From Pseudomonadota bacterium (GTDB taxonomy: Bacteria; Pseudomonadota; Gammaproteobacteria; Steroidobacterales; Steroidobacteraceae): 64,000 nt of DNA. The notes beneath the pieces were generated by a model. The model searched no databases and was not told the origin of the DNA. It was given only the letters and a program-made list of their open reading frames with translations. The DNA is taken from positions 62,001 to 126,000 of the forward strand of contig JAJYUA010000006.1 in assembly GCA_021792755.1 (NCBI GenBank). Reading direction: 5' to 3'. Shown here piece by piece: positions 1,690 to 56,178 of the stretch. The translations under genes and the position numbers were made by a program. Each line of letters opens with the position of its first letter. The stretch's first letter is position 1.

Positions 1690-3727
<2,038 letters not shown>

Positions 3728-9848: not shown

Positions 9849-10428
9849 GGCGCTGCGCTCGGATGCTCACTGGGGCGCAGACCCTTGACGCGGCGCGCAC
9901 GCCGGCGCGACCGCAGCGGTTGGGATCGCGCAAGGCTTCAATGTCCCTACGAGGGGCATCCTGATTTCGGTGCCAACAGTGCGGCTAGGATTTCTCGGTG
10001 ATCTACAGGCTGAGGGGAGATTTCGTAGCTCAGTCAAGCGGTTGCTGTTCGGCTTGCTGGCAGGCCATGGTGTCGCCCTGCGGCAAGGTCCTGAACATGA
10101 ACGACTGGCAGTCGACGTAGCCGGGGCGGCGGTCGCACAATGCCTTGAAGCGCGCAATCTACACCGGCCGGGTGGCGGGCTACCAAGCCACGCAACCCGA
10201 TGAAAGGCAGGCTGTGGCGGACGCCCCGAGCCCGCTGGCCACCCTGAGCGGCTGCGCACGAGCCATCGAACCGACGGTTCAACCGCAGGCTTATGTTCAA
10301 TGACGCCTCCCTCGGGGCGATTCCGGGAGGCAGGCGAGGTGCCGGCCTTTCGTGAAGCGCCGCACTGATTTGCCGCGGATCGTCGGCTATTTTCCGCTCG
10401 ATGAATGCCATATTGCGAGGTGACTCCC
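9849..10428. other. Stretch without supported gene
   Basis: About 580 bases between the broken lipoprotein gene and the next gene. Frames on both strands are interrupted or low in plausibility. A minus-strand stretch around 10030-10160 reads somewhat protein-like but has no start, family or ribosome site, and may be a worn gene remnant. Confidence 0.4.
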
Positions 10429-10866
10429 ATGGAACTGCACCGCGGACACGTGCAAAAGGTGCGATTCAGTACGCATACGACCGGAAACGATGACTCGGTC
10501 TCGACTCATCACATTGCGGCCTTCGAGCTTGACGGGATTGCCGTGCAGGTGGTGGCGGGACGGCCAGTGATGATGGAAAACGGCGACGAGGTCATTGTCG
10601 CCGGCAAGATCAGGCGAGGAGTGCTGATGGGAGTTGCCTGCAACAATCTCTCACGCAAGATACTGGATCACCGGGGGTGGATGGTGTCTTTGCTCGTCGG
10701 GGTCGTCTTCAGCCTCGTCGGGCTCGTCGGTGCGATCGGCGCCGCTCTGGCGCACAGTCCATTTGGAGCGGCGTTCTTCCTGGTTTTTGCAGCCGTCGGC
10801 GCAGGTGCGACCCATGGAGGCATGCAAATCCTGCGGGCGAAGCGCCTGGTCCTGGCTGGCGCCTAG
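10429..10866 (+). CDS. Two-helix membrane protein, unknown function, 145 aa
   Basis: Begins after a good ribosome site (GAGGTGAC at 10417-10424), which favours the ATG at 10429 over the one at 10405. Residues 1-80 are soluble and beta-rich, with an OB- or barrel-like pattern (VQKVRFSTHT, GIAVQVVAGRPVMMENGDEVIVAG). Two membrane segments follow (about 86-108 and 113-133) and a short basic tail. The layout recalls small membrane-anchored beta-barrel (NfeD-like or DUF3592-like) proteins, but I cannot assign a family. It stands alone on the plus strand with no operon partner. Confidence 0.55.
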   Translation: MELHRGHVQKVRFSTHTTGNDDSVSTHHIAAFELDGIAVQVVAGRPVMMENGDEVIVAGKIRRGVLMGVACNNLSRKILDHRGWMVSLLVGVVFSLVGLVGAIGAALAHSPFGAAFFLVFAAVGAGATHGGMQILRAKRLVLAGA

Positions 10867-11183: not shown

Positions 11184-11706
11184 CCCCGCTCTGACAGGCC
11201 GGGCGACAATCGGCGCGATTCCCGGCGTCGTCATCGACCGGGACCGCACGCCACCATCGGTCGTTATTCCGATTTGACGGAGCGCCGTACGGACGGTACG
11301 TGTTTCGCATCCGCAGGTCGCCGTGGCGAAGCCAATGCGAAATGGCGCCGAAGAGGCAGGCAGCCGGTTACCCTGGCCGCCCACCGCTGCGCAGCGCGGC
11401 TGTCAGAGGATCATCACCCGTCACGGTCGGCCGCCGCTCATGCCGGCACCGGTCACGGATTCCATGGGCGTGCTAGCCCATCGGCGGACGCGAATCGAGT
11501 ATTGCGCGCCGCCGCGCATTACGTTAGCATGCTAAGCAATAGTCGGTGCCAAGGCGACGACTGGTATCCGTGAGAAGGAGCGTCACGATTCGACTTGCCA
11601 CGCATGTGCGGCAGGTGCGCTCGATGTGCCGAGGATGCACACAAATTACCTTTGTTCAATGGTGTTCCGCACGCGCGGCGTGCGGCAGCGATGCACTGGA
11701 GCTCGC
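11184..11706. other. Upstream region of the RND operon
   Basis: About 520 bases without a supported gene. It contains the palindrome at 11524-11535 and must hold the promoter of the efflux operon. Other frames here are short and not protein-like. Confidence 0.45.
11524..11535. promoter_or_regulatory. 12-bp perfect palindrome, possible MarR-type operator
   Basis: TTAGCATGCTAA lies about 170 bases before the outer-membrane efflux gene, in an otherwise GC-rich upstream region. Short AT-flanked palindromes of this kind are typical binding sites of MarR-family repressors, and the operon is followed by a MarR gene. The regulator-site pairing is an inference. Confidence 0.5.
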
Positions 11707-13227
11707 ATGACACGAAGCCCCGCTGCGCTATGGGCAGTCGCCTGCACGGGCGTGCTGAGCCTCGCCGGCTGTTCTTTTGCGCCCCGATATTCTCTGCCCG
11801 CGGTGCAGATGAAGTCGTACACGCACGCCCCCTCGCCGCATGCCACCGTGAGCGCCATCGGGCCGGCCGGACAGGCGCAGCAGTTCGACTACGGGGTCGC
11901 ACCGGCCGCCAATTGGTGGCGGCAGTTGCATTCGCCGCAAATCGATGCACTCATCCGTCAGGCACTGGCGAACAATCCGCGGCTGGTGCAGGAGCGGGCC
12001 AAATTGCGCGAGGCGCAGGCCGCGATGGCTGCCGCCGCAGGCATTTTCTACCCGCAGGTCAATGGAGACCTCGGCGCTTCACGGCAGCGCACGTCCTCAG
12101 CCGGTTCCGGCGGATCCTTCCCCGGGCGCATCTACTCGCTGTATTCCGGCGGACTCGCGGTCAGCTACTACCCGGATTTCTTCGGCGTCAACCGCTTGGT
12201 TTTCAAGGGCGAAAAGGCGCTGGTCGACTATCAGCGTTACCAACTCGATGCGGCCCGATTGACGCTGATCGGCAACGTCGCCACCGCCGCGATCGGCGCC
12301 GCTTCCGTGCGCGCGCAGATTGTGGCGACGCGCTCGATCATCGCACACGAGAGGAGCCTATTGAAGCTCACCGAAACGCAATATCACTTCGGTGCAGTGC
12401 CCTACTTGAGTGTGCTCACGCAGCGCGGCCACGTGGCTGCGAGCGAGGCGACGTTGCCGTCGCTGCAGCAGCAGTGGGCGGTCTACCGGCACGAACTCGC
12501 GATCCTGGTAGGCGAGCTGCCTGCGCAGTGGCGCGATCGCTCGCCGCGCATGAGCGAAGTGCGGCTACCGGTGCGGATTCCCGTGAGCTTGCCGTCCACG
12601 TTGCTGCAGCAGCGCCCCGACATCCGCGCCGCGGAAGCACAACTGCGCTATGCGGACGTCGAGATCGGCGTCGCCAAGGCGCAAATGTACCCGGCGGTGA
12701 CGCTGACCGCCCAGTTTGGTCAGGAGAGCACCGCACCCGCGGCGTTCGTGCATGCTGCAAGCAACATCTGGAGCATTGCAGGGGATCTGGTCATGCCGAT
12801 CTTCGCAGGAGGCACGCTCGAGGCGCAGAAACGCGAAGCGATCGCGTCCTATGAGGCGACATTTGCAGCGTACCGGCAGACGGTATTGGGGGCCTTCCAG
12901 CAGGTGGCCAACGCCCTGCGGGCGCTCCAGCACGACGCACAAACCCTGCGGGCCGAGGAGCAAGCGCTCGCCGCGAACCGTGCGGCCTTGCAGGTGGCCG
13001 AGACGAGTTACCGGGACGGCGCGGTCGATTACCTCTCGCTGTTGACCGCACAGGTTCAATACAGCAACGCGCGGTTGAGCTACATCCAGGCGCAATCGCA
13101 ACGATATCTGGACACCGTGAGCCTGTTCGTCGCGCTCGGCGGCGGCTGGACGGGGCAATTGCCGGCCGCTCAGCCGCAGCCGGCGGCGCGGTCCAGAGGA
13201 GCAGTCACAATGGCCGAGGAGAATTGA
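11707..13227 (+). CDS. NodT/OprM-family outer-membrane efflux lipoprotein
   Basis: TolC-like outer-membrane channel of the efflux system encoded by the next two genes. It has 506 residues, within the family range. The signal peptide ends in the lipobox LSLAGC (Cys22). Paired outer membrane efflux domains follow, with the typical repeats LIRQALANNPRLVQERAKLR and LLQQRPDIRAAEAQLR. The ATG at 11707 is chosen because GGAG lies just upstream and the lipoprotein signal begins there; an earlier in-frame ATG would add an unnatural leader. It ends 3 bases before the adaptor gene, so all three pump parts are one transcript. Confidence 0.92.
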   Translation: MTRSPAALWAVACTGVLSLAGCSFAPRYSLPAVQMKSYTHAPSPHATVSAIGPAGQAQQFDYGVAPAANWWRQLHSPQIDALIRQALANNPRLVQERAKLREAQAAMAAAAGIFYPQVNGDLGASRQRTSSAGSGGSFPGRIYSLYSGGLAVSYYPDFFGVNRLVFKGEKALVDYQRYQLDAARLTLIGNVATAAIGAASVRAQIVATRSIIAHERSLLKLTETQYHFGAVPYLSVLTQRGHVAASEATLPSLQQQWAVYRHELAILVGELPAQWRDRSPRMSEVRLPVRIPVSLPSTLLQQRPDIRAAEAQLRYADVEIGVAKAQMYPAVTLTAQFGQESTAPAAFVHAASNIWSIAGDLVMPIFAGGTLEAQKREAIASYEATFAAYRQTVLGAFQQVANALRALQHDAQTLRAEEQALAANRAALQVAETSYRDGAVDYLSLLTAQVQYSNARLSYIQAQSQRYLDTVSLFVALGGGWTGQLPAAQPQPAARSRGAVTMAEEN

Positions 13228-13230
13228 CCG

Positions 13231-14334
13231 ATGGCGAACCCCGAGCGGCGCATCGTATTGCGCACAGTGCTCATCGTCGCGGTGGCGATTGCAGTGATCG
13301 GCGGCATCAAGCTCTGGCGGGAGCACGCCGCGCGCGCAGCCCAGGCGCACCAGGGTCCGTACGAGGTGAGCGTCTCGGCGGCGCCGGTGGTCAAAGTGTC
13401 CTGGCGGTCGGAAATCCACACGGTCGCGAGCCTGGTGGCCACCTCCGGCGTCGATCTCACGCCGCAGCTGTCCGGGCAGGTGACCGGCATCTATTTTCAT
13501 TCCGGCGAGCACGTGCGCAAGGGCCAGCGGCTCGTGCAGCTCGATGACTCGAACCAGCTGGCGACGCTGGCGCAAGATCGGGCCGATGAGGCGCTCGCCC
13601 GCATCAATTTTCAACGGGCGCAGCATCTGTACGCCGCACGCGCCACCAGCCTTGCGGCACTGGATACCGCCAGAGCGGACGAGCAGAGCGCCAAGGCGGC
13701 CGTGGTCAACGTGCGTGCGACGCTCGCGAAACTGGCCGTGAGCGCGCCGTTCTCGGGCTGGATGGGGGTGCGCCAGATCAGCCTCGGCGAGTATCTCTCG
13801 CCCGGTACGGAAATCGCCGCACTCAATGTGTGGAGTCCGCTGCGGGCCGAATTCACCGTGCCGCAAGGGCAGAGCGGCCTGATCCATCCCGGCCAGACGG
13901 TCGCCCTGACGGTCGATGCCTTTCCGGGGCAACGGTTTGAGGGCCGGATCACGGCGGTCAATTCCGAGATCAATCCCAATACCCGCAACGTAACCGTAGA
14001 AGCCATCGTCCAGAATCCGCAGATGCGCCTGCGCCCCGGGATGTTCGGCGAGGCGCGAATCCTGGTCGGCACCGCGCGCTCACGCCTGGCCGTGCCGACG
14101 GTGGCGGTCACCTACAGCACCTTCGGGGATTACGTGTACGTCATCGAGACGCGCAAGGCGGGCAGCCATGAGCTGCAGGTGGCGGTGTCCACGCCGATCA
14201 GGGCAGGGCAGGCGCGCGGCTCGCTCACGGAAGTTCTCGCCGGTCTGCATGCCGGAGAGCACGTGGTGACAGCCGGTCAGATCAAGCTGCGCAATGGAAC
14301 GCCCGTCGTGATTCATCGGCGCGGCGCGCACTGA
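13231..14334 (+). CDS. RND efflux periplasmic adaptor (membrane fusion protein)
   Basis: Links the inner-membrane pump to the outer-membrane channel. It has 367 residues with an N-terminal membrane anchor (about 10-27) instead of a lipobox. A lipoyl half-motif follows (GQVTGIYFHSGEHVRKGQRL), then an alpha-hairpin of about 50 residues containing the Ala-rich repeat around DTARADEQSAKA, and the barrel segment SAPFSGWMGVRQISLGEYL. The short hairpin resembles the MexA/AcrA-related single-anchor adaptors of the HAE-1 type. It starts 3 bases after the channel gene and ends 17 before the pump gene. Confidence 0.92.
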   Translation: MANPERRIVLRTVLIVAVAIAVIGGIKLWREHAARAAQAHQGPYEVSVSAAPVVKVSWRSEIHTVASLVATSGVDLTPQLSGQVTGIYFHSGEHVRKGQRLVQLDDSNQLATLAQDRADEALARINFQRAQHLYAARATSLAALDTARADEQSAKAAVVNVRATLAKLAVSAPFSGWMGVRQISLGEYLSPGTEIAALNVWSPLRAEFTVPQGQSGLIHPGQTVALTVDAFPGQRFEGRITAVNSEINPNTRNVTVEAIVQNPQMRLRPGMFGEARILVGTARSRLAVPTVAVTYSTFGDYVYVIETRKAGSHELQVAVSTPIRAGQARGSLTEVLAGLHAGEHVVTAGQIKLRNGTPVVIHRRGAH

Positions 14335-14351
14335 GAACCAGGGACGGCGCG

Positions 14352-17300
14352 ATGCGTTTTACGGACATTTTCGTACGTCGGCCGGTGCTTGCCACGGCCT
14401 TGAGCCTGGTCATCCTGCTGCTCGGACTGCGCGCCTGGACCGAAATGGCGGTGCGCCAGTATCCGAAGGTCACGAGCACGCTGGTGACCGTGACCACCGC
14501 CTACCCGGGTGCCAGCTCCTCGACCGTGCTCGGGTTCGTGACCGCACGGCTCGAGCAGGCCATCGCCTCTGCGCCGGGCATCGACTACATGACGGCCACG
14601 AGCTCGCAGGGCACCTCGACGATCACGGTGTACATGCGGCTCAACTACAACCCGAATGCCGCCGTTGCACAGATCATGTCCAAGGTGCAACAGGTCCAGA
14701 ACCAGTTGCCGACCGGCACCCAGGCGCCGGTGATCAATGAAACCGTCGGTAACCAGACCGCGCTGATGTACCTGGCGTTCTACAGCAAGACGCTCAGCCA
14801 GCAGCAGGTGAATGACTACGTGTTGCGCGTCGTGCAGCCGGCGATCCAGGGGGTCAAGGGCGTCGGTCAGGCGCAGATCGTGCCGGCCGGCACCGGTCCG
14901 AGCGGCGACAGCTTCGCGCTGCGCGTGTGGCTGAATCCGAACCGTATGGCGGCCCTGGGGGTGACTGCGGCGCAAGTGTCCGCGGCGCTTGCCTCAAACA
15001 ATTACATCAGCGCCGTAGGGCGCACCCGCTCGACCAATATTGCACGGCCGATCCGCGCCGATACGATCCTGCACAACGCCGGCGAGTTCCGCAGTCTCGT
15101 CGTGGCACATTCCGGCAATACCCTGGTGCGCCTGGGTGATGTGGCCAAGGTGGAGCTCGGCGGCCAGAATTACAATCAGGCCGTCTATTACAACGGCAAG
15201 CCGGCCGTTTTCATCGGCGTCTTCGCCACTCCGAATGCGAACAGCCTGTCGGTGGCCAAAGGCGTACACGCCGCGTATGCGCAATTGAAGCGCTCGCTGC
15301 CGCCAGGCATCGAGGCGGCGATTCCGTACGACGGGAGCGTATTCATCCAGAAGTCGATCCATGAGGTCATGACGACCATAGCGATCACGCTCGCCGTGGT
15401 CGTGATCGTGATCTTCCTGTTTCTCGGCTCGCTGCGTTCGCTGCTCATTCCGGCCGTGGCCATCCCCCTGGCAATCGTGGGCGGCGGCATCTTCATGATC
15501 GCCTTCGGCTACACCATCAATCTGATTACGCTGCTCGCCGTCGTGCTTGCCATTGGATTGGTCGTGGACGATGCCATCATCATCGTCGAGAACATCCACC
15601 GGCACATGGAAGAGGGGATGAGCGGATTCGATGCGGCGATTGTCGGGGCACGCGAGCTCGGCAGCCCGATCATCGTGATGTCGACCACGCTCGCGGCCGT
15701 GTTCGCGCCGATCGCGCTGACCGGCGGATTGACCGGAAGCCTGTTCTCGGAGTTCGCTTTCACGCTTGTCTTCACGGTTGCGGTTTCAGCCGTCATCGCA
15801 CTCACGCTCTCGCCGATGCTCTCGTCAAAGGTGCTGCGGCCGTCACCGTCGCATGGCTTCGCCCATGCGCTCGATGCCGGATACGAGCGTCTGCGCCACG
15901 CGTACGATCGCTCGCTTGCGGCGGTGCTCAAGTATCGCTCGGCCGCACTGGTGGTGTCCGCGGTGGTCCTCGTGTCGATTCCGGTATTGTTCTTCGGCAC
16001 ACCGAGCGAACTGGCGCCGACCGAAGATCAGGGACTCATCCTGGTCTCGGCGACCGGCCCCGCGACGGCGACGCTGCATTATCTGAATCACTATTCCCGC
16101 CAGATCGCGCATATTTTCAGGAGCTTTCCGGAGACCAAACAGGTCTTCCAGATCAACGGCATATCCCTCAGCGGGGCGGCCGATAACGCCCTGATCGGCG
16201 GGATGAAGCTCAAGCCCTGGAGTGAGCGCTCCAAGACGCAGATGGCGCTGATGCCTGAGGTGCAGCAAAAGCTCAATCGCCTCACCGGCGTGCAGGCCGC
16301 AGCCTTCCCCAGACCGACGCTGCCGGGCTCCGCAGGCGGCTTTCCGGTGCAGTTCGTCATCACCTCAAGCAGCCGCTTCGGCAAGATCGATCAGGTGGCC
16401 AACGCTCTCATCGGCAAGGCGATGCAAAGCGGTCGATTCGCGTTCCTGACCAAGGATCTGCGCTATGACTCCCCCGCAGTCGTCCTGCACGTCAACCGCA
16501 ATCTTGCCGGCGACCTCGGCATCAATATGGCCGACATTGCCGACAATCTCGAGCCTTTGCTCGGCGGCAACTACGTCAACCGGTTTGACATGTCCGGCCA
16601 CAGCTACAAGGTCATCCCGCAGGTCTCGAACCGGTTCCGTGCTCATCCCTCGATGCTGCGGGATTACTACATCCACAGCGGTACGGGAGCGCTGATTCCG
16701 CTCTCGACGCTGATGAGCGTGCGCACGGAGGTGCAACCGGAATTCCTGCCGCAGTTCCAGCAGCTGAACTCCGCGACGATCCAGGGGGTCATGGCGCCCG
16801 GCGTGACGCTCGGACAGGCGCTGACGTACCTGAAGACGGAGGCGAAGAAGATCCTTCCGCCCGGGTTCGGCATCAACTATGCCAGCGAATCACGGCAGTA
16901 CATTCAGCAGGGCCACGCGATCATCATCAGCTTTGCGCTTTCCGTCATACTGGTGTATCTACTGCTCGCCATGCAATTCGAGAGCTTCCGAGATCCCCTG
17001 ATCGTTCTGGTGACGCTGCCCATGGCGATCACGGGAGCCCTGGTGTTCCTGTACCTCGGCGCCGCGACGATCAATATCTACACGGAAGTCGGGTTGATCA
17101 CCCTCATCGGATTGATCACCAAGCAGGGCATTCTGATCGTGCAATTCGCCAACGTGATCCAGCAAAGCGAAGGCCTGGACCGCAACGCTGCGGTAGAGAA
17201 GGCCTCTAGCATCCGTCTTCGTCCGATTCTGATGACGACCGGCGCAATGGTCTTCGGCGCGCTGCCGCTCGTCTTTGCGACCGGCCCCGGCGCGGTGAGC

Positions 17301-17435
17301 CGCTTCGATATGGGGCTGGTGATTGCCGCGGGCCTCGCCATTGGCGCGTTGTTCTCGCTGTATGTGGTGCCTGTCGTGTACACGTACCTGGCGCGGGACC
17401 GGCGCACCAGCGTCGCTGCGGACGCGAAGCCGTGA
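14352..17435 (+). CDS. HAE-1 family RND multidrug efflux permease
   Basis: Proton-driven inner-membrane drug pump of 1,027 residues, the normal length for MexB/AcrB relatives. It starts with the family signature MRFTDIFVRRPVLATALSL. The paired aspartates of the proton relay are near residues 406-407 (GLVVDDAIIIVENIH). Two large periplasmic domains and twelve membrane segments are evident from the hydrophobic pattern, and the second half repeats the fold (GLITLIGLITKQGILIVQFAN). Drug rather than metal export follows from the HAE-1 type sequence. Last gene of the channel-adaptor-pump operon. Confidence 0.93.
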   Translation: MRFTDIFVRRPVLATALSLVILLLGLRAWTEMAVRQYPKVTSTLVTVTTAYPGASSSTVLGFVTARLEQAIASAPGIDYMTATSSQGTSTITVYMRLNYNPNAAVAQIMSKVQQVQNQLPTGTQAPVINETVGNQTALMYLAFYSKTLSQQQVNDYVLRVVQPAIQGVKGVGQAQIVPAGTGPSGDSFALRVWLNPNRMAALGVTAAQVSAALASNNYISAVGRTRSTNIARPIRADTILHNAGEFRSLVVAHSGNTLVRLGDVAKVELGGQNYNQAVYYNGKPAVFIGVFATPNANSLSVAKGVHAAYAQLKRSLPPGIEAAIPYDGSVFIQKSIHEVMTTIAITLAVVVIVIFLFLGSLRSLLIPAVAIPLAIVGGGIFMIAFGYTINLITLLAVVLAIGLVVDDAIIIVENIHRHMEEGMSGFDAAIVGARELGSPIIVMSTTLAAVFAPIALTGGLTGSLFSEFAFTLVFTVAVSAVIALTLSPMLSSKVLRPSPSHGFAHALDAGYERLRHAYDRSLAAVLKYRSAALVVSAVVLVSIPVLFFGTPSELAPTEDQGLILVSATGPATATLHYLNHYSRQIAHIFRSFPETKQVFQINGISLSGAADNALIGGMKLKPWSERSKTQMALMPEVQQKLNRLTGVQAAAFPRPTLPGSAGGFPVQFVITSSSRFGKIDQVANALIGKAMQSGRFAFLTKDLRYDSPAVVLHVNRNLAGDLGINMADIADNLEPLLGGNYVNRFDMSGHSYKVIPQVSNRFRAHPSMLRDYYIHSGTGALIPLSTLMSVRTEVQPEFLPQFQQLNSATIQGVMAPGVTLGQALTYLKTEAKKILPPGFGINYASESRQYIQQGHAIIISFALSVILVYLLLAMQFESFRDPLIVLVTLPMAITGALVFLYLGAATINIYTEVGLITLIGLITKQGILIVQFANVIQQSEGLDRNAAVEKASSIRLRPILMTTGAMVFGALPLVFATGPGAVSRFDMGLVIAAGLAIGALFSLYVVPVVYTYLARDRRTSVAADAKP

Positions 17436-19511: not shown

Positions 19512-19967
19512 CTACCGGCCGCCCCGGGCCTCATTGACCATGTTGTCACCCTTCAGAGGATTCACGACCTTGATGCCGGCGATCGCCTGGCCATCGTTGA
19601 AATCCTCGCTCAGGAGTTCATCGGCATCGACTTCCTCGGCCGATGCCACGATGAGCGCATCCCAGAAGGAAATTCGGGCCAGATCCGAGATTTCTGTAGC
19701 ACGTGTGACGGTTTCGACCGTCGTGGCGTGGTGTACCCAGACGCCATATGTCTTGATGACTTCTCGTGCCGTGGAACGTGCAATAGGCGTAGCGAGCTTT
19801 TGCGTCGCGTTGACGTAAAACTCCTGTAACACCTGGACGGAAAGCCGGCCAGTCCCTGAATCCCACAGCTCGCGCAGCCTCGCCGTCGCACGCTCACGCT
19901 TCACGCCTGCGTCCAGGTCGTGCGCGTGGATCAGGATATTGCTATCAACGAAGGCGACGGCGCTCAT
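19512..19967 (-). CDS. PIN-domain toxin (VapC-like)
   Basis: Ribonuclease toxin of 151 residues. The PIN acidic residues are present: Asp in FVDSNILIHAHD, Glu in LQEFYVNAT, Asp in SFWDALIVASA, and a late acidic residue in LLSEDFND. These form the Mg-binding site that cuts RNA in VapC toxins. The ATG at 19967 lies inside the end of the antitoxin gene, the usual translational coupling of toxin-antitoxin pairs. The protein is slightly longer than the typical 130-140 residues. It sits next to pseudogenes, a common place for such stabilising modules. Confidence 0.85.
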   Translation of the reverse strand: MSAVAFVDSNILIHAHDLDAGVKRERATARLRELWDSGTGRLSVQVLQEFYVNATQKLATPIARSTAREVIKTYGVWVHHATTVETVTRATEISDLARISFWDALIVASAEEVDADELLSEDFNDGQAIAGIKVVNPLKGDNMVNEARGGR

Positions 19968-20193
19968 GCAGCTCTTCGCGCCGCAAAGGCACTCCCCCCA
20001 GGGACAGAGGATTCTGAAAGAGCGACAGCGCCCGCCTGCGCGCCGATGCATACCGCGCGTCTTCATCGACAAGCTCACGCAGCTCATCTGCCAGCAGTGC
20101 GCTCACGCTTTGCCCGCGCCGTGCAGCCACTGCCCGCGCCTTCTTCAAAAGCCCGGGCTCGATCGCTACCGTGATGTTCGCTTTAGCCGCCAT
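19945..20193 (-). CDS. Ribbon-helix-helix antitoxin (VapB-like)
   Basis: Small DNA-binding antitoxin of 82 residues with an N-terminal ribbon-helix-helix pattern (NITVAIEPGLLKKARAVAAR, then SVSALLADELRELV). The C-terminal part should wrap the PIN toxin. It overlaps the toxin gene by 23 bases. The ATG at 20193 touches an inverted repeat that is the obvious autoregulatory site. Confidence 0.8.
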   Translation of the reverse strand: MAAKANITVAIEPGLLKKARAVAARRGQSVSALLADELRELVDEDARYASARRRALSLFQNPLSLGGVPLRREELHERRRLR

Positions 20194-20488: not shown

Positions 20489-20734
20489 CTATCCTCGTGC
20501 GAGCAGGGCAGGATCAGCATCGATACCGGTTACCACTTCGCCTCGGCATGCGATGAGGCGCGCGAACGTTCCATCGCCGCCGCCGGCGTCAAGGACATCG
20601 GCGCCTTTCACAGAACCCATCAGATCGAGGATCACGCGCTGCTCGAGCGACTCGGTGATGGCGCCGAGCCCGGACGCGCACCAGGACTGATAGTCCGCTG
20701 GGCTGATTCGGATTGGCGCAGGCGTCGCCCTCAC
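20489..20734 (-). pseudogene. Truncated SAM-dependent methyltransferase
   Basis: GTG at 20734 overlaps the stop of the cysteine desulfurase gene (GTGA), so the gene was once translationally coupled to it. The 81 residues contain the N-terminal helix region and SAM-binding motif I (VLDAGGGDGTFARL) with the acidic end of motif II (GIDADP), then stop. Class I methyltransferases need at least another 100 residues, so catalysis is unlikely. Its partner genes suggest a lost thiol- or metal-methylating function, which is inference. Confidence 0.6.
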
Positions 20735-21849
20735 GCGAGCGCGCGAGCCAAGTGCTCCACGACCGCCTCGATCTCCTCCTGCGTCGTGTGGCGGCCGAGA
20801 CTGAAGCGAATCGCACCCATCCCGATCTCGGGGGACACCCCCATGACGGCAAGGACGGGCGACGGGAGCACCTGCCCGGAATGGCAGGCCGAACCGGTCG
20901 ATGCGGCGATCTCGGGCATCGCTTCGAGGACGGCGGCGCCCACCTGGTCGACAAACGAGACGTTGAGTGTGTTCGGCAGACGCAGATCTGGATGCCCATT
21001 CAGGACGACCCGGCTGCCGAACCGTCCTTGAAGGCGATCCCAGAAGAGGTCGCGCAGGCGCTGCATCTCGGGTACAAAACTCAAGTTTTGTGCGCTCACG
21101 CAAGCCTTGCCGAGGGCGCCTGCCAACAAGGCGCTCTCCGTACCGGCGCGCCGTCCCATCTCGTGACCCGCCCCGTGGATCAGGGGTTCCAAGCACGTTC
21201 CGGCGCGGATGTACAGCGCACCAATCCCCTTGGGCGCGTAGAGCTTGTGTCCGGCGATGGACAGAAGATCAACTCCAAGGTCCTCCGCGCGTGTCACGAT
21301 CTTGCCCACCGACTGAGCGGCATCGGTGTGAAAGAGGACACCGCGCTCTCGGGCGATCCGCGCACACGCCTCGATCGGCTCGATCGTCCCGATCTCGTTG
21401 TTCGCGTGCATGATGCTGACGAGCAGGGTGTCGGCGCCGATGGCGCGTCGCAGATCGTCCGGATTGATTAGACCTGTGCGATCGACGGGCAGGCGCGTGA
21501 TGCGGGCGCCGCGATGCTCGAGGAACGCGCACGGCGCGAGGATCGAGGGATGCTCGATTTGCGTCGTGATGATGTGAACCGGCCGATCGCCGGCGGCGAA
21601 GTAGACGCCCTTGAGCGCCAGGTTGTTCGCCTCGCTCCCGCCGCTGGTGAAGACCACTTCCTCTGCGGTGCAGCCGAGGAGGGCGGCGACCTCTTCGCGC
21701 CCCGTTTCCACGAGCCGCTTCGCAGGCGTTCCGGCCCAGTGCAGGCTCGAGGGATTGCCATAGGCGCCCTCAATCGCCGCGCGCATCGCCTCGGCGACGC
21801 GTGGATCGACCGGCGTGCTCGCGTTGTAATCGAGATAAATGCGGCGCAC
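20731..21849 (-). CDS. Cysteine desulfurase (NifS/IscS-like)
   Basis: PLP enzyme that takes sulfur from cysteine as an enzyme-bound persulfide. It has 372 residues. It shows IYLDYNASTPVDP at the start, the PLP lysine in SIAGHKLYAPKG, the His in FHTDAAQSVGK, and the active-site cysteine in STGSACHSG. The GTG at 21849 was chosen because the family fold begins two residues later; the longer upstream frame runs antisense through the DsrE gene. It starts 4 bases after the DsrE stop, so the two are one unit. No iscU, iscA or suf genes are nearby, so it is more likely a dedicated sulfur donor than the housekeeping Fe-S enzyme. Confidence 0.9.
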   Translation of the reverse strand: MRRIYLDYNASTPVDPRVAEAMRAAIEGAYGNPSSLHWAGTPAKRLVETGREEVAALLGCTAEEVVFTSGGSEANNLALKGVYFAAGDRPVHIITTQIEHPSILAPCAFLEHRGARITRLPVDRTGLINPDDLRRAIGADTLLVSIMHANNEIGTIEPIEACARIARERGVLFHTDAAQSVGKIVTRAEDLGVDLLSIAGHKLYAPKGIGALYIRAGTCLEPLIHGAGHEMGRRAGTESALLAGALGKACVSAQNLSFVPEMQRLRDLFWDRLQGRFGSRVVLNGHPDLRLPNTLNVSFVDQVGAAVLEAMPEIAASTGSACHSGQVLPSPVLAVMGVSPEIGMGAIRFSLGRHTTQEEIEAVVEHLARALA

Positions 21850-21853
21850 GGTA

Positions 21854-22207
21854 TCAGAAAGCGATGACTTTGTCGGCAGCAAGCGTCTCGGTGGCAAGAT
21901 CATCCATCGTGCTTCGCCGGGCTCCTTCGAAGAGCTCTGCCTCCGTGAGCCCCCGAGCGTCCATGCAGGTGCCACAGAGGAGAACCTGGCCCTTGCCCGC
22001 GAGTACGCGTTTGAGCATGCGCTCGAGGTTGTAATAGCCGTCCGGAGTCTTCTGCCCGGCACGGGCCGAGGCGACCGCGTCGGCCATCAGAAAGACGGAA
22101 AGCTGCGTGACCGTGTCTTTCTTTTGCAGCGCGAGTGCGAGGCGCAGCGCGTTGTAGCAATGCTCCGTGCCGTAGGGCGGGTCGTTAAGGATGAGAAGTA
22201 TCTTCAT
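21854..22207 (-). CDS. DsrE/DsrF-like sulfur-relay protein
   Basis: Cytosolic protein of 117 residues with the DsrE fold: MKILLILNDPPYGTEHCYNA at the N-terminus and the conserved cysteine motif LLCGTCMDARGL near residue 83. In this family such cysteines carry persulfide sulfur between partner enzymes. It directly precedes the cysteine desulfurase (4-base gap), suggesting it accepts sulfur from it. The ATG at 22207 begins the first beta strand. The extra N-terminal sequence in the same frame is not protein-like. Confidence 0.85.
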   Translation of the reverse strand: MKILLILNDPPYGTEHCYNALRLALALQKKDTVTQLSVFLMADAVASARAGQKTPDGYYNLERMLKRVLAGKGQVLLCGTCMDARGLTEAELFEGARRSTMDDLATETLAADKVIAF

Positions 22208-22429
22208 AATGCATCTCTCACTTCGCCCGGCGAGCGAGCCGCTCCTGAGTAAATGGGTACAGTCAGCGCTGCTGGTCATGCCGCACGGTCGACAGTCCGC
22301 TGCATCGTTCGCTCCCTGAGCGGGACACTGCTCGCGCCAGGCAGGTAACCGTGATAAAGCTCATCGACCGGACAGACAGCGAGGAGTATCACGGTCCCGC
22401 TGTGCTCCGTGAGCGATGGCTCAAGACAG

Positions 22430-22675
22430 TCAATCGCCGAGCGTGCGCCGACGATCCTCGAACTCCTCCTTATCGATCTCGCCACGCGCGTACCGCTCCT
22501 TGAGAATGTCCAGTGCCGTGCGCCCGGGTGGTGCATGAGGTGGCTGGATCGGGTGAGAGGGACCCGCAAGCCAGCGGACGAGAAGAACCGCGGCCGCAAT
22601 CACCAGTGCCAGTACGAGGATCATAAACAGCGGACCCAAGAACATGCCGTACCACCCTCCGCCCCAATCCATCAT
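22430..22675 (-). CDS. Small SHOCT-domain membrane protein, 81 aa
   Basis: One membrane helix (about residues 9-31, FLGPLFMILVLALVIAAAVLL) is followed by a Pro-rich linker and a C-terminal SHOCT motif (ALDILKERYARGEIDKEEFEDRR), which mediates oligomerisation in many short bacterial proteins. The N-terminus is Trp/Gly-rich (MMDWGGGWYGM), typical of the small proteins found beside copper and other metal-resistance genes. It is isolated from its neighbours by about 220 and 320 bases, so it may have its own promoter. Confidence 0.8.
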   Translation of the reverse strand: MMDWGGGWYGMFLGPLFMILVLALVIAAAVLLVRWLAGPSHPIQPPHAPPGRTALDILKERYARGEIDKEEFEDRRRTLGD

Positions 22676-22992
22676 GTAGCGACCGCACACATACCGCTCA
22701 GGAGCAGGCAGCTGTTGAGCCAAAGACGAAGCAGGCGACAGACCAATAGCGCCCGTTCCATAAGTTAGAGTCGTTGACGCTCTGTTCATACGTCCCGTCC
22801 CGCAACCGTGAGGGTTTATACAATGGTTTGAGCGACTGTCCACGCCACACGTCTGCCACGGGCACCTCGCGGATTTTGGAGCGAACGGCGTCTCGACGGA
22901 ATTCGGATAAATGCGTATTCATCCGCTGCATTCCAGCCGGTGACGCGAGCGTTGAATGCATCTGGCCGCGGGAGCCGGCCTGCAATGCGCGG
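22676..22992. other. Gap between SHOCT gene and membrane-protein gene
   Basis: About 320 bases. A minus-strand frame from an ATG at 22922 to 22698 would give 74 residues (MNTHLSEFRRDAVRSKIREV at the start) but has no family or good ribosome site. I do not count it as a gene. Confidence 0.4.
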
Positions 22993-23475
22993 CTATCGCG
23001 CATATTGCGACTTGCATGCCCGGCCCGCTTGCCGCCGAGCGCGAAGCACCAGAATGTTTGCGCCCACCAGGCAGAGAAAGCCCGCGCCTTCGATGCCGAT
23101 CGATTCGACCTTCAAGCCCGGTGGCAGCAATTTGCTCGCGGTCACGAGGAGGAATCCGGCCACCCCGAGGAGCACCACGAGACGGTTTCGGTCCCGCCGG
23201 TAGGAGGCGACGAGACCGGTGGCCGCCAGCGCGGAGAAGAACACGATGACCGGCGCGCGGAAGGGAATGGCGATGCTGATTCCGATCAGTGACAGGATGC
23301 TCAGCACCGCTGTGATTCCGTAGCACGTGAGCATCGCCATGATCGTGCCTGCAGGCGCCAGCCACCTGCCACGCCCGACGGTGTCCGCTCGCCGAGATTC
23401 GGAATGGTCATTCGACACGGCTGACGCCTCGGCTAGCAGGCGATCTTTATCGCGATCGAATTGCGCCTGGCTCAT
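22993..23475 (-). CDS. Four-helix membrane protein, MerC-like in layout, 160 aa
   Basis: About 45 soluble residues are followed by four hydrophobic segments (about 46-68, 69-90, 98-118, 124-145) and a basic tail. The first helix contains MLTCYGITAVLSILSLIG; Cys in this position is reminiscent of MerC/MerF-type mercury carriers, but the second vicinal cysteine is absent. Its ATG overlaps the stop of the ArsR-rhodanese gene (ATGA), so the two are translationally coupled. A role in moving a thiol-reactive solute or sulfur species across the membrane is inference. Confidence 0.65.
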   Translation of the reverse strand: MSQAQFDRDKDRLLAEASAVSNDHSESRRADTVGRGRWLAPAGTIMAMLTCYGITAVLSILSLIGISIAIPFRAPVIVFFSALAATGLVASYRRDRNRLVVLLGVAGFLLVTASKLLPPGLKVESIGIEGAGFLCLVGANILVLRARRQAGRACKSQYAR

Positions 23476-24134
23476 GCCGCCGTCGCCACGGGCCGTCCTG
23501 CGGCCCACCATTGAGGATACCCGTCCGCGAGGCGGCGCGCGTCGTAGCCTTTGGCCCGAAGCGCGGCGACGGCCTCCACGGCGAAGACGCAGTAGGGGCC
23601 GCGACAGTAGGCGATGACCGGGCGCTCGGTGGACAGCTCGTGCAGGCGGCGCTTCAGCTCGTCAAGCGGGAGGCTGATCGCACCACGGATGTGTCCGGCG
23701 GCAAATTCCTCCGCGGGCCGCACATCGATCAGGGTCACGAGGCCGCGCCGCAGCCGACGGGCAAGTTCCTCGTGGGACAACGGCTCTAAGGTGTCGCGCT
23801 CATGAAAGTAGCTGTGAACGATTCGATCGATCTCAGCAACCCCGCGCTCGGCCGTACGGCGCAACGCCGTCAGCAGATCCATCACGTCCCGATCCGCTAG
23901 GCGATAGAGCACCCGCTTGCCGGAGCGTCTGGCGGTCACCAAGCCGGCCCGGCGCAAGAGCTGCAAGTGCTGCGAAGCGTTCGTGACCGTCAGGTCCGAA
24001 AGCTCGGCCAGTGCCTCGACGCCTCTTTCCCCCTGCGCCAGGAGCTCGATCAGCTCCACGCGATGGCCGTTGGCGATGGCCTGCGCGACGAGCGCGAATT
24101 GCTCGAAGATGTGTTTTGCGCCGCTGTTCGCCAT
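23472..24134 (-). CDS. ArsR-family regulator fused to a rhodanese domain
   Basis: Residues 1-95 are a winged-helix ArsR domain (recognition region TVTNASQHLQLLRRAGLV), and residues 122-215 are a rhodanese domain with active loop C177-R-G-P-Y-C182. The rhodanese cysteine can carry persulfide or react with arsenic, so the protein may sense sulfane sulfur directly. The ArsR part lacks the usual CxC metal site. Comparable regulators (BigR/SqrR/YgaV type) control MBL-fold persulfide dioxygenases, and exactly such a gene lies divergently next door across a 100-base region with an inverted repeat. It starts the minus-strand operon with the four-helix membrane protein. Confidence 0.88.
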   Translation of the reverse strand: MANSGAKHIFEQFALVAQAIANGHRVELIELLAQGERGVEALAELSDLTVTNASQHLQLLRRAGLVTARRSGKRVLYRLADRDVMDLLTALRRTAERGVAEIDRIVHSYFHERDTLEPLSHEELARRLRRGLVTLIDVRPAEEFAAGHIRGAISLPLDELKRRLHELSTERPVIAYCRGPYCVFAVEAVAALRAKGYDARRLADGYPQWWAAGRPVATAA

Positions 24135-24146
24135 CGTGCTAGCATC

Positions 24147-24166
24147 ATTCCAGTAATAATTGGAAT
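24147..24166. promoter_or_regulatory. Inverted repeat in divergent promoter, likely ArsR-type operator
   Basis: ATTCCAGTAATAATTGGAAT: 6-bp arms ATTCCA/TGGAAT with an 8-base AT-rich centre, 13 bases from the regulator start and 70 bases from the MBL gene. Imperfect AT-rich dyads of this size are typical ArsR/BigR sites. It is the only AT-rich island in this region, so it probably also contains promoter elements for both directions. Confidence 0.7.
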
Positions 24167-24235
24167 ATATAGCGCTGAAGACCTGAACTTGTCAAGAAGT
24201 TCCGCCGTTGGAGCAGGGCGGACGAGGAGAGTTCG

Positions 24236-24976
24236 ATGATCGTTCGCCAGTTTCTCAGCGCCGATCCGGTGGCGCTTTCGTATGTGTTCGGCTGCGGCGG
24301 CCGGGCGCTCGCCGCCGTGGTCGATCCCGTAGGACCCATTGCGCCCTACCAGCGTGCCGGCAAGTCAACGGGCATGCGCATTCGTTATGTGATCGACACT
24401 CATATCCACGCCGATCATGTCTCTTCGGGGCGCGAGCTCGCCGCCGCCACGGGCGCCGCGTACGTCCTTTTCCGTGGTGCGCCGGTGAACTTCGCCTTCG
24501 ATGCCGTCGAAGACGGCACGGTACTCGAGCTCGGCAACGTGACCGCTGAAGTGCTGCATGTACCGGGGCATACACCCGAGCACATTGCCCTGCTGGTCAC
24601 CGACCATACCCGGGCCGAGGAACCCTGGCTCGTGTTCACCGGGCACACGCTCATGGCGGGCGATGTCGGTCGCACGGAGCTCGCGAGCAGCGCGGCGGAA
24701 GGGGCGCGCGCGCTCTTTGGGAGCCTGCAGCGTCTGAAGGCTCTGCCCGACTACGTGGAGGTGCTCCCTGGAGCGTATGCCGGCTCAGTCTGCGGCCGAG
24801 GTTTGAGCGGCAAACCCGCCTCGACAATCGGCTTCGAGAGGCGATACAACGCGGCATTCGCGGCGACCGACGAGGCTGAGTTCGTGCAAATCATGCTGGG
24901 CGAGACGCCACCGGCCCCGGCGAACGCTGCCGAGCACCGTGCGGCCAACGCCGGCCGAGCTTGCGCGCCGAGGTAG
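24236..24976 (+). CDS. MBL-fold hydrolase, persulfide dioxygenase/ETHE1-like
   Basis: Metallo-beta-lactamase-fold enzyme of 246 residues. The metal motif THIHADH is near residues 60-66, the third ligand lies in VPGHTPEH near 107-114, and the GDVGRTEL motif near 142-149. The FTGD aspartate of ETHE1 and glyoxalase II reads His here (FTGHTLMAGD), a variation found in a subset of this family. Persulfide dioxygenases oxidise glutathione persulfide to sulfite; the divergent ArsR-rhodanese regulator fits that role. GAGGAGAG lies seven bases before the ATG. A plain thioesterase or glyoxalase II-like function cannot be excluded. Confidence 0.8.
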   Translation: MIVRQFLSADPVALSYVFGCGGRALAAVVDPVGPIAPYQRAGKSTGMRIRYVIDTHIHADHVSSGRELAAATGAAYVLFRGAPVNFAFDAVEDGTVLELGNVTAEVLHVPGHTPEHIALLVTDHTRAEEPWLVFTGHTLMAGDVGRTELASSAAEGARALFGSLQRLKALPDYVEVLPGAYAGSVCGRGLSGKPASTIGFERRYNAAFAATDEAEFVQIMLGETPPAPANAAEHRAANAGRACAPR

Positions 24977-24981
24977 CACTC

Positions 24982-26250
24982 GTGTCGCTCGCCACAGCGG
25001 GCGCGGGGACTGCTGCTCACCCGCGGGGCATCCGGGTCAATCTCGGGCAGTTCACCCTGCAGACCGTGCAGGTGTTCTTCGTCGGACTCGTCATCGGCAT
25101 GGAGCGCGCGGTGCTGCCAACCGTTGCGGGCGATTTTGGAGTGGCCCGCGGTGCCTTTCTCTACCTCGCGAGTTTCGTACTCTCCTTCGGCCTAGTGAAG
25201 GGCACGCTCAATCTCGTGGCCGGAGGCCTCGCAGACCGATTCGGCCGCAGACCCGTCCTGCTCGCCGGATGGCTTGCCGCCATCCCAATTCCCCTGCTGA
25301 TCTACTTCGCGCCCAACTGGTGGTGGATCGTCGCGGCGAATGCGCTACTCGGCCTCAATCAGGGTTTTACCTGGACGATGACCGTCACCAGCCAGATTGA
25401 TCTGGCGAGCAACCATCAGCGCGGGCTTGCCGTTGGCATCAACGAGGCCATCGGTTACATCGCCGTAGGTCTCGCCGGACTTGGGGCGGCGTACCTCGCT
25501 CACCGATTCGGCGCCCGGCCGGCATTGCTGCTGTTTGGTCTCGTTACGATCGCTGTGGCGCTGGGGTCGCTCGTGCGAGTGCGCGATACCCTTGCGTGGG
25601 TCCATGCGGAACACGCCGAGACGCACGGAGCCGGGCCGGCCGGCGAGTCGGCGAGTCTTGCCGCCACCTTCCTGAGGATTTCCTTTCGCGACCGAGCGGG
25701 AAGCGCGCTGTGTCAGGGCGGAGTGGTCAACAAGATCGCCGATACCCTGGTGTGGGTGATGTTCCCGCTGTACTTCACGGCGCACGGCGCGGGACTGGTG
25801 CAGATCGGCTGGTTGACGGGAATGTACGCGGTGATCTGGGGGCTCTCTCAGCTCTGGACAGGGCACCTGGCCGATCGCATCGGTCGCAAGCGGCCGGTGG
25901 TCGCGGGTTTCTTCCTGCTCTCCGGAGGAATTGCCTTGACCGGGTTTGGGCGAGGGGAGGGACTCTGGCTGCCCGCTGCCGTGATCATGGGCGTCGGGAT
26001 GGCGCTCCTGTATCCGAACCTGATTGCCGCGATGTCCGACCGGGCGCCACCCCTCATTCGCGGCAAGGCACTCGGCACGTACCGCTACTGGCGTGATACC
26101 GGCTATGCCATTGGAGCGCTGCTTCTCGGGTCGATCGCTCAATTTTCGCACGCCGCGCTGCCGGCGATCTGGATCACTGCGGTACTCGTGGCTGCCTCTG
26201 GCCTATGGATTGCGCTTGCGGTGGAGGACAGCTGCGGTATCAGGAGCTGA
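24982..26250 (+). CDS. MFS transporter
   Basis: Twelve-helix major facilitator of 422 residues with motif A in both halves (GGLADRFGRRP and GHLADRIGRKRP). The GTG at 24982 is preferred: GAGGT lies seven bases upstream, whereas the TTG at 24961 overlaps the hydrolase gene without a ribosome site. It is 5 bases after the hydrolase stop, so both are one transcript under the same operator. In this context it may export sulfite, thiosulfate or a thiol-bound toxicant. The sequence itself gives no substrate. Confidence 0.88.
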   Translation: MSLATAGAGTAAHPRGIRVNLGQFTLQTVQVFFVGLVIGMERAVLPTVAGDFGVARGAFLYLASFVLSFGLVKGTLNLVAGGLADRFGRRPVLLAGWLAAIPIPLLIYFAPNWWWIVAANALLGLNQGFTWTMTVTSQIDLASNHQRGLAVGINEAIGYIAVGLAGLGAAYLAHRFGARPALLLFGLVTIAVALGSLVRVRDTLAWVHAEHAETHGAGPAGESASLAATFLRISFRDRAGSALCQGGVVNKIADTLVWVMFPLYFTAHGAGLVQIGWLTGMYAVIWGLSQLWTGHLADRIGRKRPVVAGFFLLSGGIALTGFGRGEGLWLPAAVIMGVGMALLYPNLIAAMSDRAPPLIRGKALGTYRYWRDTGYAIGALLLGSIAQFSHAALPAIWITAVLVAASGLWIALAVEDSCGIRS

Positions 26251-26880: not shown

Positions 26881-28086
26881 GTGTAGTGGTGCGTAAATAG
26901 ATAGACATATTTCGCCCGTTGTGGTATACTGCTGGGGTGAGCAGAAACCCCGCAGTGACGTTGAAGCTGGAACCGGACGAGCAGGAACTGTTGGAAGGCT
27001 GGTTACGGGCGCACGGAACGCCACAGCAGGTGGTGAAGCGCTGCCGGATTGTGTTGTTGGCACATCAAGGTCATGCGGATGTGGAGATTGCCGAGGAGCT
27101 TGGGCTGAATCGGCACACGTGCCGGCTATGGCGGGAGCGCTTCACACGCGAGGGGCCGGAAGGCTTGTGGGAGGTGGCCGAGGGACGGGGGCGCAAGCCG
27201 CAGGCGGGCTTGGCGCAACGGATAGTTGAGGCGACTGTGAGCAGCAAACCGGCCGGCCAGACCCACTGGAGCACCCGTACAATGGCGAAAACCCAGGGAG
27301 TGGATGCGAGTACGGTGTGCCGAATCTGGCAGGAGCATGGGTTGCAGCCGCATCGGCAGGAGACCTTCAAGCTCTCGCGCGACCCGCAGTTTGTGCCAAA
27401 GCTACTGGACGTGGTGGGGGTGTACTTGAATCCGCCCCAGAACGCGGTGGTGTTGTGCGTGGACGAGAAGACCCAGATTCAGGCCCTGGATCGGACGCAG
27501 CCAGGCCTGCCGATGAAGCGAGGACGCTGCGGAACGTGGACGCCCGATTACGTGCGTCACGGCACCACGACGCTCTTTGCCGCCCTCAATGTGGCAGCCG
27601 GCACAGTCAGCGGCCGTTGTTTCCCGCAGCATCGGCACCAGGAGTTTTTGCGCTTCCTGCATCAGCTCGACGCCGAGTATGAGCAGGAACTCGACTTGCA
27701 CTTGGTTCTGGATAATTACGGCACTCACAAGACTCCGCAGGTACAACGCTGGTTGGCGCGGCATCCGCGATTCAAGGTGCATTTCATTCCGACCAGTTCC
27801 AGCTGGCTCAATATGGTCGAACGCTGGTTTGGCGATTTGACCGGCAAAGCGGTCCGGCGCGGCAGCTTCGCCAGCATTCCGGACTTGGTGGGCGCCATCG
27901 AGGAATTCATCGCGGCCTGGAATCGTGATCCCAAGCCTTTCATCTGGCAGGCGCGCGCGGAGGACATCCTCGCCAAAATCGAACGCTGCCGCCGACGGTT
28001 GGAACAAATCCAGCCCGGTTGTACTGTCCGCAGACGGAGAAAGAAGGCCGCCTGAGATGTGTATAGCTATTTGCGCATCACTACAC
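26881..28086 (+). mobile_element. IS630-family insertion sequence, complete, 1,206 bp
   Basis: Terminal inverted repeats of about 29 bp: the left end reads GTGTAGTGGTGCGTAAATAG and the right end, reverse-complemented, GTGTAGTGATGCGCAAATAG, with only a few mismatches. The element is flanked on both sides by TA (26879-26880 and 28087-28088), the target-site duplication of the IS630/mariner group. One intact transposase gene fills it. All parts are present, so it may still be mobile. Confidence 0.9.
26937..28055 (+). CDS. IS630-family transposase
   Basis: DDE transposase of 372 residues. An N-terminal helix-turn-helix region (ADVEIAEELGLNRHTCRLWR) is followed by the catalytic domain with Asp in CVDEKTQIQALD, Asp in LVLDNYGTHK and Glu in NMVERWFGDL, the D-D-E triad of the family. 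The frame is uninterrupted. Start taken as the GTG at 26937 after GGGG; a TTG at 26919 would add six residues inside a possible promoter (TATACT at 26925-26930). Confidence 0.92.
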   Translation: MSRNPAVTLKLEPDEQELLEGWLRAHGTPQQVVKRCRIVLLAHQGHADVEIAEELGLNRHTCRLWRERFTREGPEGLWEVAEGRGRKPQAGLAQRIVEATVSSKPAGQTHWSTRTMAKTQGVDASTVCRIWQEHGLQPHRQETFKLSRDPQFVPKLLDVVGVYLNPPQNAVVLCVDEKTQIQALDRTQPGLPMKRGRCGTWTPDYVRHGTTTLFAALNVAAGTVSGRCFPQHRHQEFLRFLHQLDAEYEQELDLHLVLDNYGTHKTPQVQRWLARHPRFKVHFIPTSSSWLNMVERWFGDLTGKAVRRGSFASIPDLVGAIEEFIAAWNRDPKPFIWQARAEDILAKIERCRRRLEQIQPGCTVRRRRKKAA

Positions 28087-54014: not shown

Positions 54015-55982
<1,968 letters not shown>

Positions 55983-56178
55983 TCAAGCCGCCGACGATAG
56001 CCCCGCGCCGCCCGCCGGTCAACGCCGTCCGAGCACGACTCGCGTGTCTTTCCAGGCTGCACCGGCCCGCGCCACGACGCTCGCAGGAGCGTTGGCCTCT
56101 TGACCCCCCCGAGGCTTCCCATGACGCCGGCGGGCTCGGCCAGGCGCGTCTTTGCGCCGAGCGAGCCCCCGGGGGCGG

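Follow-up and report, generated by a model that had tools for sequence, protein, structure and literature searches.

The closest described systems to the gene cluster considered here are the BigR/SqrR/SoxR-type repressors, the cst/yrk clusters, the "SUL" modules of Arthrobacter plasmids and the mer operons. The cluster lies at positions 20489–26250 of a 64,000-nucleotide stretch (the window) of contig JAJYUA010000006.1, part of the 3.76-Mb genome of a gammaproteobacterium of the family Steroidobacteraceae (GCA_021792755.1). From an operator outward, its minus strand carries genes for an ArsR-rhodanese fusion regulator, a MerC-family protein, a SHOCT protein, a DsrE protein and a cysteine desulfurase, and a methyltransferase remnant. 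Genes for a metallo-β-lactamase-fold (MBL) protein and a major facilitator superfamily (MFS) transporter are on the plus strand (Table 1).

The BigR/SqrR/SoxR-type repressors share with the window regulator the ArsR fold, two candidate sensor cysteines, and neighbouring persulfide dioxygenase (PDO)-like, rhodanese and transport genes; the range of their targets is described in PMC12423496. In the known sulfane-sulfur sensors of this type the two conserved cysteines are common to the ArsR protein itself (PMC12423496), whereas the ArsR domain of the window regulator has no cysteine and the pair is in the loop of the fused rhodanese domain. The cst cluster of S. aureus and the YrkD cluster of B. 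licheniformis have in common with the present system a PDO-like MBL, DsrE, TusA and rhodanese genes and a sulfur-responsive repressor, but the repressor is CstR-like there and an ArsR-rhodanese here. An MFS gene is not among the 11 genes named for the B. licheniformis cluster in the available text (PMC9918477). The SUL modules likewise combine, on plasmids, a sulfur dioxygenase with rhodaneses and an MFS transporter, but with a CsoR-family regulator and a TauE/SafE exporter (PMC6305408). The mer operons share a MerC-family protein, and merA is found elsewhere in the window, but merR, merT, merP and merA are absent among the genes identified within the cluster. A literature search covering few subscription papers yielded no published description of an ArsR-rhodanese/MBL/MFS module and no study of an ArsR-rhodanese switch.

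The cluster is interpreted here as a horizontally moving stress module under an ArsR-rhodanese repressor, responding to sulfane sulfur; this interpretation is given an even chance of being correct. The system is probably a variant of a persulfide-response module with altered enzyme chemistry. It links an ArsR-rhodanese switch with a mobile pair of enzyme and exporter across several phyla and offers an operator to test.

A shared gene set and its operator

The cluster is a widely shared gene set and no chance assembly. ArsR-rhodanese and MBL places were listed in 274 genomes of the window's class (Gammaproteobacteria), where an MBL threshold of E ≤ 1e-38 gave 12 places in 11 genomes. Two of these (frames of 489 and 548 residues, 42% identity) were set aside as a fused type, and 10 remain, the window's own genome included. 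Eight of the 10 have a full-length ArsR-rhodanese gene within 1.5 kb; one of the other two (G237) adjoins an ArsR-like match without rhodanese and the second (G239) has none. An MFS match is present within ~2.5 kb of all 10.

A wider set of 46 module-type MBL loci shows ArsR-rhodanese at 39 and MFS at 43 within 7.5 kb; most of these loci stem from the best 80 matches of one MBL scan, and the counts are not natural frequencies. Within the same distance are found DsrE (13 loci), desulfurase (8), methyltransferase (5), SHOCT (5) and MerC (2). At 22 loci with other PDO-like MBLs, ArsR-rhodanese is found at none and MFS at one, and each of the five accessories at none. Eleven of the 46 loci came via the regulator or are the window itself; the other 35 were found through the MBL, and of these 28 have ArsR-rhodanese and 32 have MFS within 7.5 kb. 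The set omits L135 (TGAs in the MBL frame; neither partner gene in full) and L210 (MBL in two pieces; regulator only). In the Sulfobacillus order, the surroundings of 20 window-type MBLs show an MFS match at most ~2.1 kb downstream in 18 (one is cut by a contig end) and a near-full ArsR-rhodanese ~0.7 kb upstream in eight.

The full versions nearest to the window module are L040 (a Methylocystis rosea plasmid), L126 and L128, and the ArsR-rhodanese/MBL/MFS core is also found on plasmids of Alphaproteobacteria, Deinococcota and Bacillota. Neither ArsR-rhodanese nor the MBL is present in full in the single genome sampled from the window's family or in the single one from its order, which hints at a horizontal gain of the module. 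Viral contigs gave no regulator relative by the patterns used.

The preliminary description of this DNA had proposed one conserved module, and this is not refuted: in the neighbourhoods examined, MBL, MFS, DsrE and desulfurase genes co-occur with ArsR-rhodanese in distantly related genomes. That resistance genes without any shared function were brought together by chance in a mobile island is very improbable. The flanks of the cluster would suit it, with a PIN-domain gene (19512–20087) on the left and on the right a transposase gene (26919–28055, Pfam DDE_3) that we take to be of the IS630 type, as would the truncated methyltransferase and the gene order, which differs among relatives. However, linkage is repeated in several phyla, the operator is shared and genes overlap; for the core, chance assembly is rejected, as the linkage counts speak against it. 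Chance may still account for the MerC-like gene, found beside the module at two of 46 loci.

The preliminary description placed an operator between the divergent gene sets, and this is borne out. The inverted repeat, 12 bp from the regulator start codon, is conserved upstream of regulator genes as TTC-N12-GAA, predicted to be a conserved operator. It is present in 14 of 16 loci with a window-type MBL (shuffle mean 0.6, maximum 4), 45 of 77 regulator genes of the gammaproteobacterial loci L045–L124 (mean 1.8, maximum 7) and 11 of 17 of L136–L161 (mean 0.6, maximum 3). The null values come from 200 dinucleotide shuffles per group, and related loci are not independent; the remaining few of 116 regulator genes belonged to none of the three groups. 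Among the 116, a half-site spacing of 12 is found in 74 cases and each other spacing from 6 to 17 in four or fewer. The operator touches a putative regulator promoter seen by eye, TTGACA-N18-TATATA (24195–24166, minus strand); a consensus promoter scan reported none, this one included.

The regulator scores 32 bits with HTH_5 (cut-off 22), passes the curated cut-off of the ArsR/SmtB metalloregulator family (NF033788, 72.3 bits, cut-off 55) and has a Rhodanese domain of 64.6 bits (cut-off 22.2, Pfam). C177 and C182 are its sole cysteines, and both lie in the rhodanese loop CRGPYC. The motif CRGP[YHFW]C is present in 111 of the 116 regulator genes, window included, and CRG[A/R]xC in three more; 84 of the 116 have no cysteine within the first 110 residues. 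Control of the BigR/SqrR kind, which the preliminary description named as a known parallel, is not supported by this, since the ArsR-domain cysteine pair of such sensors is missing, and a BigR-type sensor is ruled out by cysteine position. As the cysteine pair is only in the rhodanese loop, the regulator would work like known ArsR sensors at best, with the sensing pair apparently moved to that loop. In-frame TGAs in two other ArsR-rhodanese genes were considered as selenocysteine codons and rejected: one (G053) is at the frame end, and the alignment of the other (G154, locus L081) has no internal stop.

The MBL protein: metal site and cysteine pair

The MBL was first described as persulfide-dioxygenase-like. 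Its fold and descent agree with this; an ordinary PDO it is not. The structural model (mean pLDDT confidence score 91.1) has 3tp9, 3r2u and 4chl as its best Foldseek entries, and the protein groups, by sequence and fold, with the CstB-type and ETHE1 enzymes of the PDOs (types I–III). It shares with them the HxHxDH motif and the ligand His112; H56, H58, D60, H61 and H112 are all kept, as are C20 and C186, and the CstB-like entries 3r2u and 3tp9 have cysteines at the places of these last two. In PDOs the iron is held by two histidines and one aspartate (PMC6060420, PMC12856154), and a second-shell histidine, H171 of the A. caldus enzyme, hydrogen-bonds to the ligand aspartate (PMC6060420). The window MBL differs at both places. 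The iron-ligand aspartate of the 2-His-1-carboxylate triad is replaced by His137 and the second-shell histidine by Ala180; for the latter the alignment was made to 4ysb, on which the A. caldus model is based, in place of the A. caldus sequence. An ordinary PDO is ruled out by these positions.

Variants of the A. caldus PDO with alanine, glutamate or histidine for the ligand aspartate keep 0.5–2% activity; the Asp-to-His variant is low in iron and was likened to cysteine dioxygenase, and the second-shell His-to-Ala variant is inactive (PMC6060420). Since the published variants at both positions are nearly inactive, persulfide oxidation by the window MBL is, by analogy, in doubt. Two residues nearly indispensable by mutagenesis, both changed together in nature, make a sharp test case.

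An alignment of 76 MBLs, which leaves out L112, L135, L282 and most rows of distant outgroups, displays His and Ala at the two places (H/A) in 44 rows, Asp and His (D/H) in 32 and no mixed pair; a second alignment of 97 MBLs also has no mixed pair (L135 is unreadable there). A tree made without the two columns rejects a single H/A clade (approximately unbiased test, p 0.008) and needs three changes between H/A and D/H, of which starred branches force two; another tree needs two. The coupled change of Asp to His and His to Ala is thus predicted to have switched at least twice, with gains and reversals indistinguishable in the MBL tree, where long branches meet.

The columns of C20 and C186 are cysteine in all 33 rows of alignment A2, and the window MBL has cysteine at both places. 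The MBL of Sulfobacillus harzensis (L135, positions 10001–10744) has an in-frame TGA exactly at each of these two places. Its genome has SelB and a selenocysteine tRNA (tRNA-Sec), both over cut-off in this one genome checked, and a second such MBL. Copies were read across 42 genomes of the Sulfobacillus order (L135, L240–L256, L264–L282). Among 21 H/A copies, 14 are TGA/TGA, three Cys/TGA, three Cys/Cys and one is cut off after a TGA at C20; both ligand columns can be read in 20 of these, each with the H/A pair. Beyond these places one more stop was seen, a TGA close to the C-terminus at query position 244. The D/H copies read in this order have no stops, and place 20 is mostly Asp in them, not Cys, so that the wider family does not always keep C20.

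In the consensus fold the TGAs are followed by a hairpin, a candidate SECIS element, with a loop GGUCG after the second TGA in 15 of 17 rows; two folded Cys/Cys copies are without it. Folding is weak (z-scores of TGA rows −2.6 to 0.8, little covariation), so the arguments for selenocysteine are position, SelB, tRNA-Sec and the recurring hairpin, not folding energy. The TGA/TGA copies of the Sulfobacillus order are thus predicted to be double-selenocysteine proteins, and the paired TGA would mark C20 and C186 as chemically important. The words "lactamase", "MBL", "dioxygenase", "hydrolase" and "persulfide" do not occur in the main text of a review from 2026 on the selenoproteins of prokaryotes, so that the paired TGAs predict a selenoprotein not found by this word search.

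Window-type MBLs may accordingly be read as either differently working metal enzymes or no oxygenases. The first option may, tentatively, amount to a new enzyme class: a PDO fold whose natural metal site has three histidines, like that of cysteine dioxygenase, and acts together with a cysteine pair (a double selenocysteine in the Sulfobacillus-order relatives), tied to the ArsR-rhodanese switch and MFS exporter. In such a class the two or more switches would argue for a change of substrate or oxidant and not for decay, a suggestion held with less than even confidence. The second option, a thiol-exchange or binding protein based on cysteine or selenocysteine beside an exporter, concerns the MBL alone and fits either signal discussed below. 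It agrees with the loss of nearly all activity in the published single variants, with the unvarying cysteine columns of A2 and with the paired TGAs, but it is held less likely than not; window-type rows keep H56, H58, D60, H61, H112 and the new H137, which suggests that metal is still bound.

Sulfane sulfur and thiophilic metals as candidate signals

The sulfane-sulfur reading is put forward because of the DsrE protein with its CxxC, the desulfurase, the rhodanese domain, the PDO descent of the MBL and the arrangement in Cytobacillus. There the core is near rhodanese, TusA and DsrE/F genes and a second MBL gene, an arrangement that appears to resemble closely the B. licheniformis sulfane-sulfur cluster (PMC9918477). 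In the proposed mechanism, the repressor would bind the operator, which lies by the regulator's start and adjoins the divergent MBL-MFS pair, and sulfane sulfur or another thiol-reactive species would load C177/C182 and release the repressor. The MBL and MFS would form the effector core, the MBL acting on a persulfide or related thiol adduct through the rebuilt metal site of three histidines with the aid of C20/C186, and the MFS transporter exporting the product. DsrE and desulfurase would serve this chemistry by producing and carrying sulfane sulfur; the MerC-like and SHOCT proteins would be accessories.

Several observations besides the mutagenesis weigh against this reading. The window has a mercuric reductase gene, merA, at 1916–3727, ~17 kb from the cluster (590 bits, cut-off 454). 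MerA matches over cut-off are found no more than 7 kb from the MBL in L041, L119, L135 and L145 (a partial match in L206 is under cut-off and was not counted), and merR1 is on the same Cytobacillus plasmid stretch as the module (L207). The second gene of the minus strand is of the MerC family. Nine of the 80 gammaproteobacterial ArsR-rhodanese loci (L045–L124) share a gene cluster whose one tested representative is arsS, an arsenosugar gene (461 bits, cut-off 300), and an MBL of this kind adjoins just five of the 80. Sulfane sulfur, the signal named in the preliminary description, is thus not established.

These data lead to a second reading, plausible although held short of an even chance, that the module responds to thiophilic metal(loid)s, for example Hg(II), As(III) or organic forms of these; the preliminary description had also named a metal as the alternative. 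C177/C182 would then chelate the metal, the MerC-like and MFS proteins would move it, the sulfur genes would supply sulfide or thiol ligands, and the MBL would handle a metal-thiol or organometal adduct through its cysteine (or selenocysteine) pair. In addition to the mercury and arsenic genes given above, this reading is favoured by an RND permease gene fragment directly upstream of merA, cut by the window edge, by a tripartite RND efflux set (outer membrane, adaptor, permease) at 11626–17435, and by genes near L039 and L043 annotated as MerT-family and GDCCVxC. However, MerA is found in just four of 47 clustered loci; the families of DsrE, desulfurase, rhodanese and PDO-type MBL handle sulfur; and plasmids gather resistance genes whatever their use. 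By eye, no merR, merT or merP was recognised in the frames adjoining merA. Sulfane sulfur and a thiophilic metal both fit as the signal, and the two readings may share chemistry.

Other neighbours in L045–L124 include a DsrE cluster in 16 of the 80 loci and a gene that we take to be TVP38-like, with rhodanese, in 41; in 47 the ArsR-rhodanese gene is divergent to a gene presumed to be sterol-desaturase-like. A representative ArsM-like gene near gammaproteobacterial ArsR-rhodanese genes is below cut-off.

Gene inventory and accessory genes

All genes named in the preliminary description are found, with intact frames except for the methyltransferase; it had missed the SHOCT gene, the MerC-family identity and the changed MBL active site.

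Table 1. Features of the cluster and their positions in the window.
Feature	Position	Strand	Evidence
Class I S-adenosylmethionine-dependent methyltransferase, N-terminal remnant	20489–20734	-	Match ends of relatives
NifS/IscS-like cysteine desulfurase, GTG start	20731–21849	-	Aminotran_5
DsrE-family protein, CGTC at residues 78–81	21854–22207	-	Pfam DsrE
SHOCT-domain membrane protein	22430–22675	-	Pfam, 38.5 bits, cut-off 27
MerC-family membrane protein	22993–23475	-	Pfam MerC, marginal
ArsR-rhodanese fusion regulator, 220 aa	23472–24134	-	Pfam/NCBIfam profiles
Operator inverted repeat ATTCCA-N8-TGGAAT (TTC-N12-GAA)	24147–24166		Conserved upstream of regulators
MBL-fold protein, persulfide-dioxygenase descent	24236–24976	+	Lactamase_B; sequence and fold
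MFS transporter, GTG start (TTG at 24961 possible)	24982–26250	+	MFS_1

By their coordinates, the regulator frame shares 4 nt with the merC-like frame, and so does the desulfurase frame with that of the methyltransferase. DsrE, desulfurase, methyltransferase and SHOCT genes recur as accessories of the core, and rhodanese genes are met repeatedly as well.

The product of the second gene was first described as a four-helix membrane protein coupled to the regulator. Gene and coupling stand, and the family is now MerC, marginally: the Pfam score of 29.7 bits is over the gathering cut-off of 27.6, and there is no NCBIfam match. Its three cysteines are also present in the L126 relative. The DsrE protein scores 83.4 bits (Pfam, cut-off 22.7) and 32.7 bits against the NCBIfam TusD equivalog, below the cut-off of 89.25; a CxxC is found in 12 of 13 aligned DsrE rows near module-type MBLs.

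The desulfurase has a score of 228 bits with Aminotran_5, and the nearest NCBIfam profile, NifS, gives 413.7, under its cut-off of 530.75. It belongs to the NifS/IscS fold family and has the pyridoxal phosphate lysine and the loop cysteine, but the equivalog cut-offs are not reached. The lysine is K203 in AGHKLY and the cysteine C323 in the mobile loop TGSACHSG, which we take to be the expected desulfurase motifs. Among solved structures, the only relative of the MFS transporter found is NorA (E about 5e-4).

The truncation of the methyltransferase, noted in the preliminary description, is confirmed by relatives, whose good matches stop at 20495–20501. One weak match (E 0.04) runs on to 20423; beyond it, no continuation in another frame was found, and a search of the genome to which the window belongs gave no second copy at E ≤ 1e-5. 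The gene here is a remnant. The PIN-domain gene and a small upstream frame (19512–20193), perhaps a toxin-antitoxin pair, adjoin it.

A nucleoside phosphorylase-like gene is present beside the module in L039, L125, L134, L205, L210 and L040; on the Methylocystis plasmid (L040) the frame is fused to a methyltransferase. Elsewhere in the window, a thiamine pyrophosphate riboswitch is found at 55867–55988 on the minus strand (69.8 bits).

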